A stretch of DNA of 64,000 nt from Spiribacter roseus (GTDB taxonomy: Bacteria > Pseudomonadota > Gammaproteobacteria > Nitrococcales > Nitrococcaceae). The stretch's first letter is position 1, and each line of letters begins with the position of its first letter. A model generated the notes under the pieces. It was not told the DNA's origin and searched no databases. It saw only the letters and a program-made list of their open reading frames with translations. Both the position numbers and the translations under genes were made by a program. The stretch lies in contig NZ_CP016382.1 of the NCBI RefSeq assembly GCF_002813635.1, positions 1,771,001 through 1,835,000 on the forward strand. The letters are read 5' to 3'. This document shows positions 45,242-54,412 of the stretch, piece after piece.

Positions 45242-46197
45242 TCGGCGCCGGCGAAAGGACGCCGCCCCGCATTGTCTATGCGGGGACGCCCGACTTTGCG
45301 GTGCCCGCCCTCGAGGCGCTGGTGGCGGCGGGCTATCCCATCGCCGCGGTGTACACCCAGCCCGACCGGCCGGCCGGCCGCGGGCGCCGGCCGCGACCCT
45401 CAGCCGTCAAGACGGCCGCCCTCGAGCACGGTCTGAGCGTTGAGCAGCCGGAACGCCTGGACAATGCCGACGCCCGGGCCCGGCTCGCCCACCACCAGCC
45501 CGATGTCATGATCGTGGCGGCCTATGGCCTGATCCTGCCGACTTCCGTGCTGAACATCCCGACCAATGGCTGTGTGAACATCCATGCCTCGCTGCTGCCG
45601 CGCTGGCGGGGGGCGGCGCCCATCCAGCGGGCCATCGAGGCCGGCGACCCGGAAACCGGCGTCTGCCTGATGGAGATGGCGGCGGGCCTGGATACCGGGC
45701 CGGTGATCGCGGCGCGGTCGACGCCCATCACCGCGGACGACAACGCCGCGCAGTTGCATGACCGGCTGGCCGATCTGGGGGCGCAGCTGCTTCTGGAGTG
45801 CCTGGATGACTGGCTGGATGGTCGTCGACCCGCCCATCCGCAGCCGGAAGATGGCGTGACATACGCCGCCCGGATCAGCGCTGACGAGGCCTGGATCGAC
45901 TGGCAGCGCCCGGCGCTCGAGACGGCCCGCCGGGTGCGGGCGTTCAATGCCTGGCCGGTGGCCCGCTGCGCCTGGGGCGATGCCCGGCTGCGGGTCTGGC
46001 AGTCAGTGGCGCTGCCGGGCGATGGGGCGACAGCCGCGCCCGGCACCATTGTCGCCGTCGGCGCCGACGGGATCGATGTGCAGACCGGCGAGGGCCTGCT
46101 GCGGCTGCAGCGGGTGCAGGCGGCCGGTGGCCGGGCTCAGCCAGTGGCGGAATTCCTTCGGGGGCACCCAGTGCATGTCGGCGAAACCCTCCACTGA
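45238..46197 (+). CDS. fmt: Methionyl-tRNA formyltransferase, non-canonical start
   Basis: Formylates initiator Met-tRNA. Family motifs: YAGTPDFAVPALEAL at the N-terminus, VVAAYGLILP-type (VAAYGLILPTSVL), and NIHASLLPRWRGAAPIQRAI with the catalytic Asn-His and SLLP loop. The conserved YAGTPDFA begins at 45277, upstream of the first usable GTG (45301), and no ATG, GTG or TTG occurs in frame between the stop at 45211 and 45301. I place the start at CTG 45238, which overlaps the def stop as CTGA like the NTGA overlaps elsewhere here, giving 319 aa. ATT at 45271 with AAAGGA upstream is the alternative. Starting at 45301 would delete the conserved N-terminus. Confidence 0.9.
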   Translation: MIGAGERTPPRIVYAGTPDFAVPALEALVAAGYPIAAVYTQPDRPAGRGRRPRPSAVKTAALEHGLSVEQPERLDNADARARLAHHQPDVMIVAAYGLILPTSVLNIPTNGCVNIHASLLPRWRGAAPIQRAIEAGDPETGVCLMEMAAGLDTGPVIAARSTPITADDNAAQLHDRLADLGAQLLLECLDDWLDGRRPAHPQPEDGVTYAARISADEAWIDWQRPALETARRVRAFNAWPVARCAWGDARLRVWQSVALPGDGATAAPGTIVAVGADGIDVQTGEGLLRLQRVQAAGGRAQPVAEFLRGHPVHVGETLH

Positions 46198-47485
46198 TCC
46201 GCGCGGGGCCGCCGTCGAGGTCCTGCTGGCGGTGCTCGGCCGGGGGCGGTCGCTGGATCGCGCCCTGAGCGAGCACGGCCCGGGCGGCGATGATCCCCGG
46301 GATGTTGCGTTGTGCCGGGCGATCGCCTACGGGGTGCTGCGGCATCACCGCCGACTGGGTGCCATTCGGGATCACTTTCTGCGCAGCCGGCTCAAGTCGC
46401 GGGATCAGGACATGGCGCTGCTCCTTGAGGTCGGCTTTTTCCAGCTCACCGAAATGGACATGCCGGCCCACGCGGCGGTCTCGGAAACCGTCGCGGAGGC
46501 CCGGCGGCGCGGCAAGCCCTGGGCCGCGAAGCTGATCAACGCCGTCCTGCGACGTTTCCAGCGCGACAGCGCGGCCTGCCTGCAGGCGGTGGACGCCGAT
46601 CCCGGCCGCAGCGCTTCAGTGCCGGACTGGCTGCTGGCCCGCCTGCGCCGGGACTGGCCCGACGACTGGCCGGCGCTGCTGGCGGCGCAGAATACCCGGG
46701 CGCCCATGACGCTGCGGGTCAATCAGCGCCGCAGCAGCCGCGAGGCCTATCGCGGACGGCTTGCCGCCGAGGGCATCGGCGCCCGTCCCCTGGACGGCTT
46801 CGAGGATGCCCTGGTGCTCGATCACGCGGTGGCGGTCAGCGCGCTGCCGGGCTTTGCCGAGGGCGACTGCTCGGTGCAGGACGCCGTGGCCCAGTGGGCC
46901 GCGCCGTTGCTGGGGGCCGCGGATGGCGATCGGGTGCTCGATGCCTGCGCCGCACCCGGCGGCAAGGCGGCCCACGTGCTCGAGCGCGCGGCGGCATCAC
47001 TGCTGGCGGTGGACAGTGATGGCGAGCGCCTGCAGCGGGTCACCGAAACCCTCGACCGCCTTGGCCTGAGTGCCGAGGTGCGGGTGGCGGATGCCTCGGA
47101 CCCCGGCCAGTGGCCGGCGGCTGAGCGCTTCGATCGCATCCTCATTGATGCGCCCTGTTCGGGCACCGGCGTCATCCGCCGGCATCCCGACATCAAATGG
47201 CTGCGGCGCGAGGCCGACATCGCGCATCTGGCCGTGCGTCAGCGCGCGCTGCTGGACACCCTCTGGCCGCGCGTGGCGCCGGGTGGCCGCCTGGTCTACT
47301 GCACCTGCTCGGTGCTGCGCGCCGAGAATGAAGCGGTGGTCGAGGCCTTCGTCGCGGATCAGGATGATGTCACTGTGGTCCCACCGGTACTGCCGGTGGG
47401 TCGACCGGTGGGCCACGGACATCAGATCCTGACTGGCGAGGCCGGCGTCGATGGCTTCTACTATGCCTGTCTGGACAAGCGCTAA
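46175..47485 (+). CDS. rsmB: 16S rRNA (cytosine(967)-C5)-methyltransferase RsmB
   Basis: 436-aa methyltransferase with an N-terminal NusB-like RNA-binding domain (1-140) and a C-terminal SAM domain. SAM loop DACAAPGGKAAH; motif IV DAPCSGTGVIRRHPDIKW with the release cysteine; motif VI VYCTCSVLRAENE with the nucleophilic cysteine. The ATG at 46175 gives MSAKPSTDPRGAAVEVLL and overlaps fmt by 23 bp; the open frame upstream is fmt shadow. The def-fmt-rsmB order is classic for gammaproteobacteria. Confidence 0.95.
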   Translation: MSAKPSTDPRGAAVEVLLAVLGRGRSLDRALSEHGPGGDDPRDVALCRAIAYGVLRHHRRLGAIRDHFLRSRLKSRDQDMALLLEVGFFQLTEMDMPAHAAVSETVAEARRRGKPWAAKLINAVLRRFQRDSAACLQAVDADPGRSASVPDWLLARLRRDWPDDWPALLAAQNTRAPMTLRVNQRRSSREAYRGRLAAEGIGARPLDGFEDALVLDHAVAVSALPGFAEGDCSVQDAVAQWAAPLLGAADGDRVLDACAAPGGKAAHVLERAAASLLAVDSDGERLQRVTETLDRLGLSAEVRVADASDPGQWPAAERFDRILIDAPCSGTGVIRRHPDIKWLRREADIAHLAVRQRALLDTLWPRVAPGGRLVYCTCSVLRAENEAVVEAFVADQDDVTVVPPVLPVGRPVGHGHQILTGEAGVDGFYYACLDKR

Positions 47486-48038
47486 CCCCCGCATCGCCGC
47501 GCTGGCGGCGCTGCTGTGTCTGGTCGTGGCCGGCAACAGCCCCCCGGCGGCGGGCTTCAGTGTCGCCGCCCTCGAGCAGCGCTTCGACAACGGGCTGCTG
47601 GTGGTGGACGGGCGCATTGACTATTCCCTGACGGCGACGGCGACCGAGGCGCTGGAGAATGGCGTCGATCTGGTGATCAGCCAGCGGCTCAGCCTGGAGC
47701 GGCCGCGCTGGTGGTGGCGCGACGTGGAGGTAGTCAGCCAGCAGCGCCGCTACCGGCTTGCCTACCACGCCATGAGCCGTCGCTATGTGCTCAACCGCCT
47801 TGCCAGCGGTGAGAGCCGCAGCTATCGCAGCCTCGACGCGCTGCTGACGCGGCTCGGCACCATCGAGGCCTGGCCGGTGATCGGTCGCGACCGCCTCGAT
47901 GACCAGCAGACCTATCGACTGCGCTTCGAGACCGAGCTCGATGTGGAGGCGCTGCCGCGGCTGCTGCGCACGGTGGCCTGGGCCAGCGATGACTGGCAGC
48001 TGCGCAGTGAGCCGGCGACGCTTGAGGTGCGGCCATGA
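47451..48038 (+). CDS. DUF4390 domain secreted protein
   Basis: 195-aa protein with a hydrophobic N-terminal export signal (about 14-35, PRIAALAALLCLVVAGNSPP) and a DUF4390 domain behind (LLVVDGRIDYSLTATATEAL, GVDLVISQRLSLERPRWWW, YRLAYHAMSRRYVL). Role unknown; it regularly precedes NtrY-like sensor kinases, so it may help sensing at the membrane. ATG at 47451 has GAGG 9 bases upstream; ATG 47463 is an alternative. It overlaps rsmB by 35 bp and the kinase by 4 bp. Confidence 0.87.
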   Translation: MASTMPVWTSANPRIAALAALLCLVVAGNSPPAAGFSVAALEQRFDNGLLVVDGRIDYSLTATATEALENGVDLVISQRLSLERPRWWWRDVEVVSQQRRYRLAYHAMSRRYVLNRLASGESRSYRSLDALLTRLGTIEAWPVIGRDRLDDQQTYRLRFETELDVEALPRLLRTVAWASDDWQLRSEPATLEVRP

Positions 48039-50191
48039 GCGGGCTGCCGCGGCAGGCCATTGTCCGCATCCTGCTCAGCGTGCTGCTGATCCTGTCGCTG
48101 TACCTGCTCAGCGCCGCGACCGAGAACTCCTCGCGCTTCGGGCGCCTGTACCTGTGGCTGCTGCTGATCAACGGCGTGGTGCTGGTGGTCCTCTCGGGGC
48201 TGATCATCAACAACCTGCAGCGGCTGGTGCGCTCATTCCGGGCGCGGGAAACCGGCAGTCGCCTGACCCTGCGGCTGATGGCGCTGTTCGTGGTCCTGGC
48301 GGTGCTGCCCGGGCTGGTGGTCTACGGGTTTTCGATGCAGTTCCTGCAGCGCGGTGTGGACAGCTGGTTTGACGTGCGCGTCGAAAACGCCCTCGAGGAC
48401 GCACTGGCGCTTTCCCAGGCGTCGCTGGATCAGCGCATGCGTGACATGCAGCAGCGCCTTGAAGAGGCCGCCCGGGATCTGGCCGATGTCAGCTCGGACA
48501 TGGCGCCCATCACCCTGGGCGACCTGCGCGCCCGCACCGGCGCCTCGGAGCTGACACTGATCGGCGAGAACGGGCGCATCATCGCCGCCAGCAGCATGGA
48601 TACCGACAGCATCCTGCCCCACCGTCCCGAGGAGAGCATTCTCCTGCAGCTGCGCCAGGGCCGGCCCTATGTGGGGCTTGATCCCATCGAGAACGCCGGG
48701 CTGCACATCCGCGCACTGGTGCGTGCGCCGGGCCCGGACGGACCGGGCAATACGCGCATCCTGCAGGGGCTTTTCCAGGTCTCGCCGCGCATCAACGACC
48801 TGGCCGACGAGGTGGAAACCGCTTTCAGCGAGTATCGCGAGCTCGCCTATCTGCGCGGACCGCTCAAGGACAGTTTCATTCTGACGCTATCGCTGGTGCT
48901 GCTGGTTTCGCTGCTGTTCGCCGTCTGGTCGGCCTTCTATCTGGCCCGGCGACTGGTCGCGCCGGTCAGTCGTCTGGCCGAAGGCACCCGGGCGATGGCC
49001 GCCGGCGAGTACGGGACCCAGCTGCCTCCAGCGGGCAACGACGAGCTGGGCTTTCTGGTGCGCTCGTTCAATGACATGAGCCGGCGGGTGGCCGATGTCC
49101 GCGATGCCGCGCGGCAGAGCCAGGCGCTGGTCGAGTCCCAGCGCGCCTACCTCGAGACCGTGCTGGGGCGTCTGTCCTCGGGGGTGCTGGCGCTGGGTCG
49201 GGACGGCACCCTGCGCACCTATAACCAGGCGGCGGAGGACATCCTATCGGTGCCGCTGCACGAGGCCACCGGGCAGCCGCTCTCGGCGCTTGTCGAGCGC
49301 TTCCCCGACTTCAGTCCGTTCGTCGAGCAGATCGAGGCCCATCCGCACGGGGCCGAGGGCGAATGGCGGGCCGAGCTCAGCCTGGACACCCGCGAGGGGC
49401 GTCGATCGCTGATCTGCAGCGGGGCGATGCTGCCGGGCGGGGCCGAAGGCGGCGGCGAGGTGATCGTTTTTGATGACGTGACCACGCTCATCCAGGCCCA
49501 GCGCGACGCGGCCTGGGGTGAAGTCGCCCGCCGGCTGGCCCACGAGATCCGCAATCCGCTGACGCCCATCCAGCTGTCCGCCGAGCGCCTCCAGCACAAG
49601 GTGGGCAACCGCCTGAGCGGTGAGGAAGCGGCCCTGCTGCAGCGCTCCACCGACACCATCATCCATCAGGTTGAGGCCATGAAAGACATGGTCCAGGCGT
49701 TTTCCGAGTATGCGCGACCGCCGGTGCTCGAGCTCCAGCGGGTCGACCTCAACGCCCTGGTGCAGGAGGTGGCCGAACTCTATCGCGGACAGGCGGCGCA
49801 GGCCTCGATTCGCACAGATCTGGATGAGCATCTGCCCGGGCTGGAAGCCGATGCCGGCCGGCTGCGTCAGCTGCTCAACAACCTCATCCGCAATGCCCTC
49901 GAGGCCGATGATGGCGGCGCCTGCGAGATCGTGGTCTCGACCCGTCGCGGCACTGGCCGTCACGCCGGCTGTGTCGAACTGGACATCGAGGATAACGGGC
50001 CCGGGTTTGCCGACGCCATGCTCGATCAGCTCTTCGAGCCCTATGTCAGCACCAAGCCGCGGGGCTCGGGACTGGGCCTGGCGATCGTGAAAAAGATCGT
50101 CGAGGAGCACAATGGCAGCATCAGTGCCCGCAATGTCGAGGGCGGCGCACGCTTGTCAGTGCGCCTGCCGACCGGGGAGAAAGGAGAATGA
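48035..50191 (+). CDS. NtrY-like membrane sensor histidine kinase
   Basis: 718-aa kinase. Membrane segments at about 10-28, 40-62, 80-103 and 283-305 enclose a periplasmic sensor of about 180 residues; then HAMP (about 300-355), PAS (about 365-470), HisKA with phospho-acceptor His in ARRLAHEIRNPLTPIQLSAE, and HATPase (NLIRNALEADDG, DIEDNGPGFADAML, GSGLGLAIVKKIVEEH). The His and the N, G1, G2 boxes are intact, so it should be active. Signal unknown; NtrY relatives respond to nitrogen, redox or envelope cues. It overlaps the response-regulator gene by 4 bp. Confidence 0.93.
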   Translation: MSGLPRQAIVRILLSVLLILSLYLLSAATENSSRFGRLYLWLLLINGVVLVVLSGLIINNLQRLVRSFRARETGSRLTLRLMALFVVLAVLPGLVVYGFSMQFLQRGVDSWFDVRVENALEDALALSQASLDQRMRDMQQRLEEAARDLADVSSDMAPITLGDLRARTGASELTLIGENGRIIAASSMDTDSILPHRPEESILLQLRQGRPYVGLDPIENAGLHIRALVRAPGPDGPGNTRILQGLFQVSPRINDLADEVETAFSEYRELAYLRGPLKDSFILTLSLVLLVSLLFAVWSAFYLARRLVAPVSRLAEGTRAMAAGEYGTQLPPAGNDELGFLVRSFNDMSRRVADVRDAARQSQALVESQRAYLETVLGRLSSGVLALGRDGTLRTYNQAAEDILSVPLHEATGQPLSALVERFPDFSPFVEQIEAHPHGAEGEWRAELSLDTREGRRSLICSGAMLPGGAEGGGEVIVFDDVTTLIQAQRDAAWGEVARRLAHEIRNPLTPIQLSAERLQHKVGNRLSGEEAALLQRSTDTIIHQVEAMKDMVQAFSEYARPPVLELQRVDLNALVQEVAELYRGQAAQASIRTDLDEHLPGLEADAGRLRQLLNNLIRNALEADDGGACEIVVSTRRGTGRHAGCVELDIEDNGPGFADAMLDQLFEPYVSTKPRGSGLGLAIVKKIVEEHNGSISARNVEGGARLSVRLPTGEKGE

Positions 50192-51567
50192 GCAAGGCTT
50201 ATGTGCTGGTCGTCGACGACGAGCCGGACATCCGTGAGCTGGTCCGCGAGATCCTCGAGGACGAGGGCTACGCGGTGGCGACGGCGGAAAGCGCCGACCA
50301 GGCGCGCTCGCTCCTGCGGGAGCGGACGCCGCAGCTGGTGCTGCTGGACATCTGGATGCCCGGCGATGATGGGATTTCGCTGCTCAGGGAGTGGGCGCAG
50401 GGCGGTGTCTGCCCGTTCCCCGTGGTGATGATCTCGGGGCATGGCACGGTGGAAACCGCCGTTGAGGCCACCCGCCACGGGGCCATGGACTTTGTCGAAA
50501 AGCCGCTGTCCATGGGCAAGCTGCTGGCGACGGTGGAGCAGGCGCTGAACGCCCCTGATGCCGTCGCCGCCCCCGCCGGGGCGCCCGCCGCGGTGGTTGA
50601 GCCGGTGGGACGCAGCAGTGCCATGCGCGATCTGCGCGAGCAGGCCGAGCGGCTTGCCGGCACCGACAGCTGGGTGCTGATCAGTGGCGAGCCCGGCAGC
50701 GGCCGGAAATGCCTGGGGCGCTATATCCACAGCCTCAGCGAGCGCCGTGCGGGGCCGCTGGTGGAGGTGGCCGCCGGCACCATCGCCGGGCAGTCGGCGG
50801 CCCACGAGCTGTTCGGCCAGGTGCGTGGCGACCAGGTCATCCCCGGTCGCCTCGAAGCGGCGGCGGGGGGCACGTTGATCCTTGACGGGGCCGCCGACCT
50901 GGACGCCGAGGCGCAGACCCGGCTGGCCTCGGCCATTGATGCCGGCAGTTTCCAGCGGGTGGGCGGCTCGGAGCGTCTTTCGCTGGATGTGCGCATGATC
51001 GCCATCAGCCGTCGCGACCTGACCGCCGAGGCCCACGCCGGGCGCTTCCGGCCGGATCTGGCCTATGCGCTGAGTGTGATTCCGCTGACCGTCCCGCCGC
51101 TGCGCGAGCATGCCGAGGACATCCCCGAGCTGGTGGTCTTTCAGGTCGACCGGCTGGTCGAGCGGGAACAGCTCGGTTACCGTCGCTTCACGGTGGCGGC
51201 CCAGAACCGGCTGCGAAATCATCACTGGCCCGGCAATGTCCAGGAGTTGCATAACCTGGTACAGCGGCTGCTGGTGCTGGGTGACGGCATCGACATTGAG
51301 GTCGGCGAGGTCGAGGCCGCCCTCAGTGAGCGTCCGGCCGCGGCCGGTGGCGACAGCGACTGGCCGCAGGCGCTGGCGCTGCCGCTGCGCGAAGCCCGTG
51401 AGCGCTTCGAGCGCGATTACCTGCAGCGACAGCTGCAGCGCGCCGACGGCAGTGTCGCGCAGCTCGCGCGTCTGGCGGGCATGGAGCGCACGCATCTGTA
51501 TCGCAAGCTGCGCGCGCTGGGCATCGACCCGCGCGAGGGCGGCGAATCCGGCGGAGGCCGTGCATGA
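50188..51567 (+). CDS. NtrX-like response regulator with degenerate AAA+ domain
   Basis: 459-aa regulator: receiver (1-120), AAA+ module (about 140-375) and Fis-type HTH (about 415-450, [20 protein letters not shown]). The receiver is intact (Asp10, Asp11, phospho-acceptor Asp54 in LLDIWMPG, Lys105). The AAA+ part is not standard: Walker A reads GEPGSGRK with Arg173 in place of Lys, Walker B reads LILDGA with Gly234 in place of Glu, and GAFTGA is absent with a shortened loop ([14 protein letters not shown]). It therefore should not hydrolyse ATP normally or activate sigma-54; it probably regulates sigma-70 promoters by phosphorylation-dependent DNA binding, as reported for some NtrX proteins. 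It overlaps trkA by 4 bp. Confidence 0.93.
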
Positions 51568-52940
51568 AGATCATCATTCTGGGAGCCGGCCAGGTCGGCG
51601 GTACCGTGGCCGCCAACCTGACCAGCGAAGACAACGACATCACCGTGGTCGACCGCGACGGCCAGATCCTGCAGGCACTCCAGGATCGACTCGACCTGCG
51701 CACGGTCGCGGGCAACGCCACCTACCCGGCGGTACTCGAGCGCGCCGGGGTCGATGACGCCGACATGGTGATCGCGGTCACCAACTCGGACGAGGCCAAC
51801 ATGGTGGCCTGCCAGATCTGCGCTACGCTGTTCCGCACGCCCAGCAAGATCGCCCGGGTGCGAGCCGTGGAGTATCTCTCGCACCCGCAGATCTTTGCCC
51901 CCGACGCCCTGCCCATCGATGTGCTCATCAGCCCCGAGCAGCTGGTCACCCAGTACGTGCGCCGGCTGATCGAGCATCCCGGCGCGCTGCAGGTGATGGA
52001 TTTTGCCGATGGCAGGGTCCGCCTGGTGGGTGTGCGCGCCTACTACGGGGGCCCGCTGGTGGGCCAGGAACTGCGCACCCTGCGTGAACACGTCCCCGGC
52101 GTGCAGACCCGGGTGGCGGCCATCTATCGCCGCGGCAGCGCCATTATCCCCGAGGGGGAGACGGTGATCGAAGCCGGTGACGAGGTGTTCTTCGTGGCGG
52201 CCCGCAAGAACATCCGCGCGGTGATGAGCGAGCTGCGCCGGCTCGACAAGCCGGTCAAGCGCATCACCCTGGCCGGTGGCGGCAATATCGGCATGCGCCT
52301 TGCCCAGTCCCTCGAGCCCCACTACCGGGTCAAGATCATCGAGCATAATCCGCAACGCTGCCGGGCGATCGCCGATACCCTCAAAAAGACCATCGTGCTG
52401 CGTGGGGATGCCGCCGACGAGGACCTGCTGCTCGAGGAGAACATCGAGAACACCGACGTGTTCTGCGCCCTGACCAACGATGACGAGGCCAATATCCTGG
52501 CGGCCATGCTGGCCAAGCGGCGCGGCGCGCGCACGGTCATGGCGCTGATCAACCGCGCCGCCTACGTTGATTTGATCCAGTCCAGCGACGACATCGATGT
52601 GGCGATCTCGCCGCAGCAGGCGACCATTGGCAGTCTGCTAGCGCATATCCGCCGCGGTGACGTGGCCACGGTGCACAGCCTGCGCCGCGGGGCCGCCGAG
52701 GCGATCGAGGCGATCGCCCACGGCGATGCCGGCAGCTCCGAAGTGGTGGGCCGCCGCATCGATCAGATCCGCCTGCCGCGGGGCACCACCATTGGCGCCA
52801 TCGTGCGCGGCGAAGAGGTGGTCATGGCGCATCACGATACGGTGATCGAACCCGAAGACCACGTCATCCTGTTCCTCGTCGACAAGAGCCGGCTGCGAGA
52901 CGTCGAAAAGCTCTTCTCGGTGGGCGTGACCTTTCTTTAG
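51564..52940 (+). CDS. trkA: Trk potassium uptake protein TrkA
   Basis: 458-aa NAD-binding regulatory subunit that assembles beneath TrkH. It is a tandem of two RCK units: Rossmann [18 protein letters not shown] (1-20) with acidic VVDRD, TrkA_C 1, Rossmann [19 protein letters not shown] (about 234-250), TrkA_C 2 to the end. Typical length. Potassium uptake is central to osmotic balance and fits a salt-adapted organism, though TrkA is widespread. It is followed by trkH after 14 bp and preceded by the NtrX-like gene with a 4-bp overlap, so the two-component pair may control K+ uptake. Confidence 0.96.
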
Positions 52941-52954
52941 GGACCCGAGAGCTC

Positions 52955-54412
52955 ATGCATCCCGATGCCGTCCAACGCGTGCTGGGTGTCCTGCTGATGG
53001 TGTTCAGCGTGACGATGCTGCCGCCCGCCCTGGTGAGCGTGATCGCGGCCGACGGGGTGGCCGAGGCGTTTTTCCTGACCTCCGGCCTGCTGCTGGCCGT
53101 GGGCGGGCTGCTCTGGCTGCCGGTCCGCCAGTCGCGCCGCGAGCTGCGCATCCGCGACGGGTTCTTTGTGGTGGCGATGTTCTGGGTGGTGCTGGGCGCC
53201 GCCGGTTCGCTGCCACTGGCGCTCCAGACCGTGGTCCCGCTGGCCTTCGTCGACGCCCTGTTCGAGAGCGTCTCGGGGCTCACCACCACCGGCGCCACGG
53301 CGCTGACCGGGCTCGACGCCCTGCCGGTGTCCATCCTCTACTATCGCCAGCAGCTGCAGTGGCTGGGCGGCATGGGGATCATCGTGCTGGCCGTGGCCAT
53401 CCTGCCCATGCTGGGCATCGGTGGCATGCAGCTCTACCGCGCCGAGCTGCCGGGGCCGGTCAAGGATGCCAAGCTGACCCCGCGCATCGCCGAGACCGCC
53501 AAGGCGCTGTGGTACATCTATCTGGGGCTGACGGTGGCCTGCGCCCTGGCCTACTGGGCGGCCGGCATGGGGCCGTTTGATGCGGTGATGCATGCCTTCA
53601 CCACCATCGCCACCGGCGGCTTCTCGACCCACGACGCCAGCATGGGATATTTCGACAGTGCCCTGATCGAGATGATCGCGGTGGTGTTCATGATCATCTC
53701 GGCGCTCAACTACTCCCTGCATTTCATGGCCTGGCGGCGCCGCAGCACCGAGCCCTGGCGCAGCGACCCCGAGCTGGTGACCTTTCTGACCGTGCTGGCC
53801 CTGGTGACGGTGCTGGTGCTGGGCGGACTGCTGATCTATCAGGCCGCGCACAGCCTGCTGCTGGACGAGACCTGGCATCACGCCATCTTTCAGGTGGTCT
53901 CGTTCGCCACCACCACCGGGTATACCACGGCCTCGTATTATGTCTGGCCGGCCTTCCTGCCGGTGCTGCTGCTGTTCGTGGCGGTGGTCGGCGGCTGTGC
54001 CAACTCCACCTCGGGCGGTCTCAAGGTAATGCGCATCCTGCTGCTCTGGCGCCAGGGCGGGCGCGAGATCCTGCGCCTGATCCACCCCCAGGCGCAGATC
54101 CCGGTCAAGATCGGCGACCGGCCGGTCAGCGAGCGGGTCATCGACGCGGTATGGGGGTTCTTTGCCGCCTATGTCCTGCTGTTCGTCCTGCTGATGCTGC
54201 TCATGCTGGCCATGGGGCTTGATCAGATCACGGCCTTCTCGGCGGTGGCCTCGGGGCTTGCCAACCTGGGCCCGGCGCTGGGAGACGTCGCCGCCAATTT
54301 CGCTGGCGTGGGGGCGGGGCCCAAGCTGGTCATGTGTGTGGCGATGATCATGGGCCGGCTCGAGATCTTCACCCTGCTGGTGCTTTTTACGCCGGCATTC
54401 TGGCGGCGTTGA
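52955..54412 (+). CDS. trkH: Trk potassium transporter TrkH
   Basis: 485-aa polytopic K+ channel subunit with about ten membrane segments. Its four pore loops carry selectivity-filter glycines: GLTTTGATAL, TTIATGGFSTHDAS, FATTTGYTTASY and SGLANLGPALGDV. The segment QQLQWLGGMGIIVLAVAILP is characteristic. Adjacent to trkA, its regulatory partner. Start ATG at 52955 follows a GGGAC/GAG purine-rich stretch. Confidence 0.95.
   Translation: MHPDAVQRVLGVLLMVFSVTMLPPALVSVIAADGVAEAFFLTSGLLLAVGGLLWLPVRQSRRELRIRDGFFVVAMFWVVLGAAGSLPLALQTVVPLAFVDALFESVSGLTTTGATALTGLDALPVSILYYRQQLQWLGGMGIIVLAVAILPMLGIGGMQLYRAELPGPVKDAKLTPRIAETAKALWYIYLGLTVACALAYWAAGMGPFDAVMHAFTTIATGGFSTHDASMGYFDSALIEMIAVVFMIISALNYSLHFMAWRRRSTEPWRSDPELVTFLTVLALVTVLVLGGLLIYQAAHSLLLDETWHHAIFQVVSFATTTGYTTASYYVWPAFLPVLLLFVAVVGGCANSTSGGLKVMRILLLWRQGGREILRLIHPQAQIPVKIGDRPVSERVIDAVWGFFAAYVLLFVLLMLLMLAMGLDQITAFSAVASGLANLGPALGDVAANFAGVGAGPKLVMCVAMIMGRLEIFTLLVLFTPAFWRR

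Follow-up and report, generated by a model that had tools for sequence, protein, structure and literature searches.

An NtrX-type response regulator of Spiribacter roseus with an apparently vestigial AAA+ module

Domain organization and motif residues of the regulator

We analyzed a 64,000-nucleotide stretch of the Spiribacter roseus genome (contig NZ_CP016382.1, positions 1,771,001 to 1,835,000; hereafter the window, whose own numbering is used below). The plus-strand open reading frame (ORF) at 50188..51567 encodes a 459-residue response regulator composed of a receiver (REC) domain, an AAA+ module and a Fis-type helix-turn-helix (HTH). The gene is ntrX-like, as judged from the ORF, the Pfam and NCBIfam matches and the closest solved protein, Brucella NtrX (5m7n). 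Pfam places Response_reg at residues 6-116, Sigma54_activat at 140-300, AAA_lid_14 at 306-385 and HTH_8 at 404-443. The top NCBIfam model is NF051870 NtrX, with 408.5 bits, under the curated cut-off of 600. The HTH carries the NtrX-type motif ERTHLYRKL...LGI, derived from our own alignments. With its REC-AAA+-Fis HTH architecture, its best similarity to NtrX and its gene directly 3′ of ntrY, the protein is an NtrX by locus, architecture and HTH. It has no GAFTGA, no Walker A Lys and no Walker B Asp-Glu, the motifs of a sigma-54-dependent bacterial enhancer-binding protein, and by these motifs is not a sigma-54 activator.

The receiver (residues 6-122, 50203..50553, Pfam Response_reg) retains both the phospho-acceptor D54 (50347-50349) and K105. 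In the AAA+ module, motif reading and alignment reveal a degenerate Walker A, GEPGSGRK (50686..50709), with R173 (50704-50706) at the Lys position, and a degenerate Walker B, LILDG (50875..50889), with G234 (50887-50889) at the Glu position. The aligned loop 1 region (residues 208-223, 50809..50856) lacks GAFTGA, and its segment is 13 residues long, as compared to 18 in the NtrC of the same genome. Translation, Pfam and alignments thus bear out what the first-pass annotation had reported from the letters alone, namely intact D54 and K105, Arg173, Gly234, the Fis-type HTH and the absence of GAFTGA from a region about five residues shorter. Two further catalytic positions are altered in the alignment. 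In the region that, after work on PspF, we take to be that of the arginine fingers (51049..51069), R288 is kept and the second putative finger is Ala294, while at the position presumed on the same grounds to be sensor II (51241..51243) Gln352 replaces Arg. The pre-sensor-I hairpin region, placed by alignment and model and taken here to be ‘loop 2’, spans the 18 residues 251-268 (50938..50991). The AAA+ lid (residues 306-385, 51103..51342, AAA_lid_14) and the Fis-type HTH (residues 398-446, 51379..51525, HTH_8) follow. All of these features are on the plus strand.

In an AlphaFold model built from 50 sequences, the mean predicted local distance difference test score (pLDDT) is 83.7 and the predicted template modelling (pTM) score is 0.56, so that the placement of the domains is unsure. 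Most AAA+ blocks exceed a pLDDT of 90, with 78-86 around loop 1, and the AAA+ module alone fits solved activator domains with a target template modelling (TM) score of up to 0.92. The AAA+ fold is kept in the model. The closest structures by both sequence and fold are those of Brucella abortus NtrX (5m7n, 5m7o and 5m7p), on which the full-length model superposes with a TM of ~0.5 and a root-mean-square deviation near 20, values that fit domains whose relative placement is loose. Like the window protein, Brucella NtrX is a full-length REC/AAA+/HTH protein whose aligned loop lacks GAFTGA. However, it keeps the Walker A Lys and the Walker B Asp-Glu, and its deposited structures include ATP- and ADP-bound forms, whereas in the window protein the Lys, the Glu, the second arginine-finger position and the sensor-II Arg are all replaced. 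The structural study reportedly found no ATPase activity. VpsR (7v2b) has a related AAA+ fold and is said to work without sigma-54; the title of its structure describes c-di-GMP (cyclic di-GMP) binding, a ligand for which the window protein offers no evidence.

Shared defects and shifted constraint within the genus

An ntrX orthologue is present in each of the 14 genus genomes, without an internal stop; one of the genes ends at a contig end. The Walker A Lys is absent from all 14 proteins (Arg in 12, Cys in 2), as are GAFTGA and an Arg at the second arginine-finger position. At the Walker B Glu position, Glu is found in 4, Gly in 8 and Arg in 2, while the sensor-II Arg is kept in 9/14 and the first arginine-finger Arg in 14/14. 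As judged from these alignments, the losses of the Walker B Glu and of the sensor-II Arg are not genus-wide. Because all 14 orthologues lack both the Walker A Lys and GAFTGA, the losses in the window protein are not a sequence error. A pseudogene is likewise ruled out by the 14 orthologues, which are free of internal stops. The first-pass annotation had asked whether the substitutions are common to close relatives and had named, as the case that would overturn it, intact relatives beside an error in this record; the genus instead carries the same defects, with the Walker A Lys and GAFTGA lost in 14/14 and the Walker B Glu in 10/14.

We compared evolutionary rates in 13 genus genomes (78 pairs, which are not independent), leaving out G008, in which NtrC is partial, and used the NtrC of the same genomes as a control. 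The control NtrC-like activator of the window genome lies just before the window (G000, C1, 1769477-1770847), and its GAFTGA and Walker motifs are present. The mean non-synonymous divergence (dN) of NtrX is 0.140 in REC, 0.249 in AAA+ and 0.064 in the HTH, and that of NtrC is 0.116, 0.054 and 0.075, respectively. The AAA+ dN of NtrX is therefore ~4.6 times that of NtrC, while the REC and HTH values are alike, and the AAA/REC dN ratio of NtrX exceeds that of NtrC in 78/78 pairs. Within AAA+, the alignment has 39 gap columns for NtrX and none for NtrC, and all 39 are confined to the core, leaving the lid ungapped. The mean identity of NtrX is 0.815 in REC, 0.61-0.71 in the core segments, 0.746 in the lid and 0.908 in the HTH, without gap columns in the latter, as compared to 0.94-0.99 in the core segments and 0.83 in the lid of NtrC. 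The constraint on core and lid is thus reversed, since NtrC keeps its core best and the lid of NtrX exceeds its core.

These data bear on two other explanations. An ntrX gene decaying on its way out of the genus would accumulate substitutions and indels, as the AAA+ core does. However, the genes are free of internal stops, the HTH remains highly identical and ungapped, and the 4-nucleotide overlap with trkA is kept in 14/14 loci, so that we regard such decay as very improbable. The other explanation, that the AAA+ module binds nucleotide or another ligand without hydrolysis and thereby serves as an allosteric signal, is suggested by the ATP- and ADP-bound Brucella NtrX crystals and deserves more weight. 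In its favor, G167, G170 and G172 of Walker A are invariant in the genus, and the ratio of dN to synonymous divergence (dN/dS) of the AAA+ module is well below 1. Against it stand the absence of the Walker A Lys and of Arg at the second arginine-finger position from all 14 proteins, the confinement of the gap columns to the core, and the presence 3′ of ntrY, in four genomes, of genes that have no AAA+ domain at all. We consider a nucleotide-sensing role unlikely, at perhaps one chance in five.

The gene for sigma-54 itself, rpoN, has one match in the window genome, which answers a check proposed with the first-pass annotation, and is present in 23/23 family genomes. Four other activator genes of the window genome keep GAFTG and Walker A. 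Loss of sigma-54 as the cause of NtrX decay is therefore ruled out, and, as far as gene content can tell, NtrX decayed by itself. The same presence of rpoN and of intact activators would favor the view that the protein is a regular, ATPase-competent sigma-54 activator misrepresented by an erroneous record. The recurrence of the defects in 14 genomes, the accelerated evolution and core deletions of the AAA+ module and the lack of GAFTGA in every aligned NtrX described below make that explanation scarcely credible.

Loss of AAA+ features across the NtrX family

We aligned 195 NtrX proteins, comprising 14 from the genus, 9 from other members of the family, 80 named NtrX, 63 from a class sample and 29 presumed alpha-type proteins. 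The 80 named proteins were the top-ranking ones among 564 relatives, selected by similarity to the genus, and some of their titles do not name a gammaproteobacterium. The class sample consists of the 30 best HTH matches and 40 hand-picked lower matches, minus seven. The alpha-type set is the 30 best matches minus one, from the same phylum but a different class, presumed to be alpha; being top-scoring, it is biased to canonical members. Left out of the motif counts were A_L151 (alpha-type, spoiled by trimming), L160 and L161 (class-sample entries that duplicate family members), L164, L177, L193 and L194 (ending at contig ends) and L190 (from G457); the truncated family protein L048 and L065, with one internal stop read as X, were kept.

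A GAFTGA-like motif was found in none of the 195 aligned proteins. The 29 alpha-type proteins otherwise retain the ATP site (Lys in 29, Asp in 29, Glu in 28, both arginine-finger positions in 29 and the sensor-II Arg in 29). Of the other 166, the gamma-type proteins, 35 keep both the Lys and the Asp-Glu, 34 have damage to both and 97 to one of the two. A single FastTree tree, in which long branches are numerous, requires at least 13 changes in the state of the Walker A Lys, a fewest-changes count that does not distinguish gains from losses and is indicative only. A shortened loop without GAFTGA would thus be an old NtrX trait and the damage to the ATP site a patchier one, the two defects probably differing in age. 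GAFTGA loss has already been reported for Caulobacter NtrX (PMC10274813) and for one Thioalkalivibrio NtrX (PMC5744179). Given these reports and its absence from all 195 proteins, the lack of GAFTGA is, on the alignment, not special to the window protein; we do not claim it for every match of the NtrX model.

In two genus members the AAA+ core has lost whole pieces in frame. In G013, NtrX is missing 14 residues behind GPLV and 12 of the pre-sensor-I hairpin; in G005, it is missing 13 in the loop 1 stretch and 11 in the hairpin. The hairpin regions that are left comprise 6 and 7 residues, respectively, as compared to 18 in the window protein. A short hairpin is also found in 5/63 class-sample proteins and, clearly, in 1/80 named NtrX. 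In G124, the gene 3′ of ntrY (L286, 3303-4562) encodes a 420-residue NtrX with a hollowed AAA+ module, in which Walker A reads GEPGVGME, with Met in place of Lys, and both loops are gone. PF14532 (Sigma54_activ_2), the curated short sigma-54 interaction domain, covers this shortened module end to end with 148.7 bits, and the shortened form is therefore already a known sequence family. PF14532 also matches the window protein (67.9 bits), whose AAA+ module is nearer the full-length PF00158 (119.4 bits).

Regulators with a receiver and an HTH only lie 3′ of ntrY in G192 (240 residues) and G218 (224 residues), and the class search yielded two more after ntrY, in G104 and G041. Pfam finds just Response_reg and HTH_8 in all four, the HTH_8 score of G192 being 20.5 against a cut-off of 22. 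Other short frames were not accepted. In G457 (L190, C2:2183700-2191200), an open frame of 171 residues covers the C-terminal part of NtrX alone; the sequence before it appears to be out of frame, as after a frameshift or an assembly error, and the frame was not taken as a true short gammaproteobacterial NtrX. In G546 and G469 (C61), the short frames extend to the end of a contig. Among the matches listed in the class search, the remaining short frames end at contig ends or are that of G457. Betaproteobacterial NtrX is described in PMC13001219 as having no AAA+ domain, and both this form and GAFTGA-less NtrX are already known.

Gene neighborhood and proposed mode of action

The gene order in the window is rsmB-DUF4390-ntrY-ntrX-trkA-trkH, all on the plus strand. 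The rsmB ORF (45947..47485; Methyltr_RsmB-F, NusB) overlaps the preceding gene, and its true start is probably further in. It is followed by a DUF4390 (PlrP-like) gene (47451..48038; PF14334), which overlaps ntrY by 4 nucleotides, the ntrY-like sensor kinase gene (48035..50191; NtrY_N, HAMP, HisKA, HATPase_c), and, beyond ntrX, trkA (51564..52940; TrkA_N, TrkA_C) and trkH (52955..54412; TrkH). The ntrX gene overlaps ntrY at 50188-50191 and trkA at 51564-51567, by 4 nucleotides each. An NtrY match lies upstream of ntrX in 13/14 genus loci, and the remaining locus ends at a contig end. DUF4390 was found in 5/36 genomes searched, including that of the window; three of the other four are G124, G192 and G218, with the hollowed or AAA+-less regulators described above.

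The first-pass annotation had proposed K+ uptake as a target from the adjacency of trkA-trkH. Outside the genus, where only loci with at least 300 nucleotides of sequence after ntrX were considered, a TrkA match lies 3′ of ntrX in 7/8 other family, 51/75 named and 31/40 class-sample loci, and within 60 nucleotides in 1, 31 and 19 of them, respectively. The adjacency is therefore a common arrangement and offers weak evidence for such a target. In addition, TrkA was not found in the stretches examined 3′ of ntrX in G192, G218 and G124, with their AAA+-less or hollowed regulators, and the Bordetella cluster of this gene order is not one operon according to PMC13001219. The Bordetella locus of PlrR, a betaproteobacterial NtrX, has the same order rsmB-DUF4390-sensor-regulator-trkA-trkH and the same 4-bp DUF4390/sensor and regulator/trkA overlaps, but its sensor and regulator genes are 9 bp apart, whereas those of the window overlap, and PlrR has no AAA+ domain, in contrast to the full-length, apparently dead module of the window protein. 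Phosphorylated PlrR is stated in the same paper to be essential in vitro.

At the 3′ end of ntrY (~49957-50137, ~77-17 codons before the stop), synonymous-codon similarity among 8 genus genomes rises to 0.62-0.71, as compared to ~0.55 over most of the ntrY compared, with a second peak of 0.65-0.75 near 450 codons before the stop. The 3′ stretch may be an internal promoter or operator. No sigma-70 consensus promoter was found in 49700-50260.

Taken together, the window protein most likely regulates by binding DNA in a phosphorylation-dependent and sigma-54-independent manner, its AAA+ module being a vestigial scaffold. NtrY would phosphorylate D54, and the phosphorylated receiver would promote dimerization and binding of the Fis-type HTH at promoters of sigma-70-type polymerase, with activation or repression as the outcome. 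The AAA+ module, to judge from its motifs, would neither hydrolyze ATP nor contact sigma-54, and would persist as a folded spacer joining receiver and HTH, the lid being more constrained than the core. The first-pass annotation had also proposed a scaffold with phospho-dependent DNA binding as its output, a reading that our analysis supports by inference. It had further held that some GAFTGA-less NtrX proteins work with sigma-70, but the precedent we found, in PMC10274813, concerns NtrC. There, the GAFTGA-less NtrC of Rhodobacter capsulatus and Caulobacter, with a loop 1 deletion as in the window NtrX, are reported to act at sigma-70 promoters and to need aspartate phosphorylation for activation, and in Caulobacter NtrC the binding and hydrolysis of ATP are predicted still to contribute.

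Several observations weigh against this interpretation. Four of the 14 genus members keep the Walker B Asp-Glu, nine the sensor-II Arg and all of them the first arginine-finger position. The dN/dS of the NtrX AAA+ module is ~0.05-0.28 over 13 of the pairs, so that purifying selection persists; the module is therefore not free of selection and may still serve, for instance, in nucleotide binding or dimerization. Of 20 lower-scoring NtrX-model matches from other parts of the phylum, outside the 195 aligned proteins, 10 have GAFTGA or a motif one letter away from it (two of these 10 being second matches in genomes already sampled), so that the family at large may still include action through sigma-54. 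Finally, the search for a target promoter gave none: the site GCA-N9-TGC, reported for Rhodobacter NtrX, was found within 300 nucleotides upstream of mraZ in none of 13 loci, with ~1 expected from shuffles; in 4/13 loci, including the window genome, no start codon was found and the beginning of the frame was used.

That site was proposed by comparison with NtrC-family sites, according to PMC7240162, and this derivation, like the Fis-type HTH present in both proteins, would fit an NtrX whose main action lies in joint assemblies with NtrC or in competition at NtrC-like sites. The C-terminal helices of the two proteins differ, however, and we think such a mode of action very improbable.

Loop 1 reads GAFPGA, GAFTGA, GAFSGA or GAFAGA in the NtrX-model matches L239 and L244-L250 (genomes G071, G078, G058, G086, G039, G031, G130 and G066), candidate NtrX proteins that possibly represent early stages of GAFTGA loss.

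Across relatives, the AAA+ module would have been lost in grades, in the order of the GAFTGA loop, the ATP site (in several gammaproteobacterial lineages), the pre-sensor-I hairpin with pieces of the core (in the genus and G124) and finally the whole domain. We lean slightly towards a reading in which the NtrX family records how an AAA+ activator was repeatedly taken apart, grade by grade, to leave a simple REC-HTH regulator. The genus would then be a living intermediate of this process, with selection shifted away from the ATPase core towards the lid and the HTH. In the titles and abstracts of the open-licence literature that we searched, we found no description of graded AAA+ decay in gammaproteobacterial NtrX, of a genus-wide dead ATP site or of the reversed constraint on core and lid.

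In every member of this genus, NtrX is devoid of GAFTGA, of the Walker A Lys and of an Arg at the second arginine-finger position, which provides a testable case for whether such a regulator needs its AAA+ module, and which part of it. The intact NtrC of the same genomes serves as a control, and the AAA+-less genes after ntrY elsewhere add a comparison. NtrX proteins of this kind should not be annotated as sigma-54-dependent nitrogen regulators.

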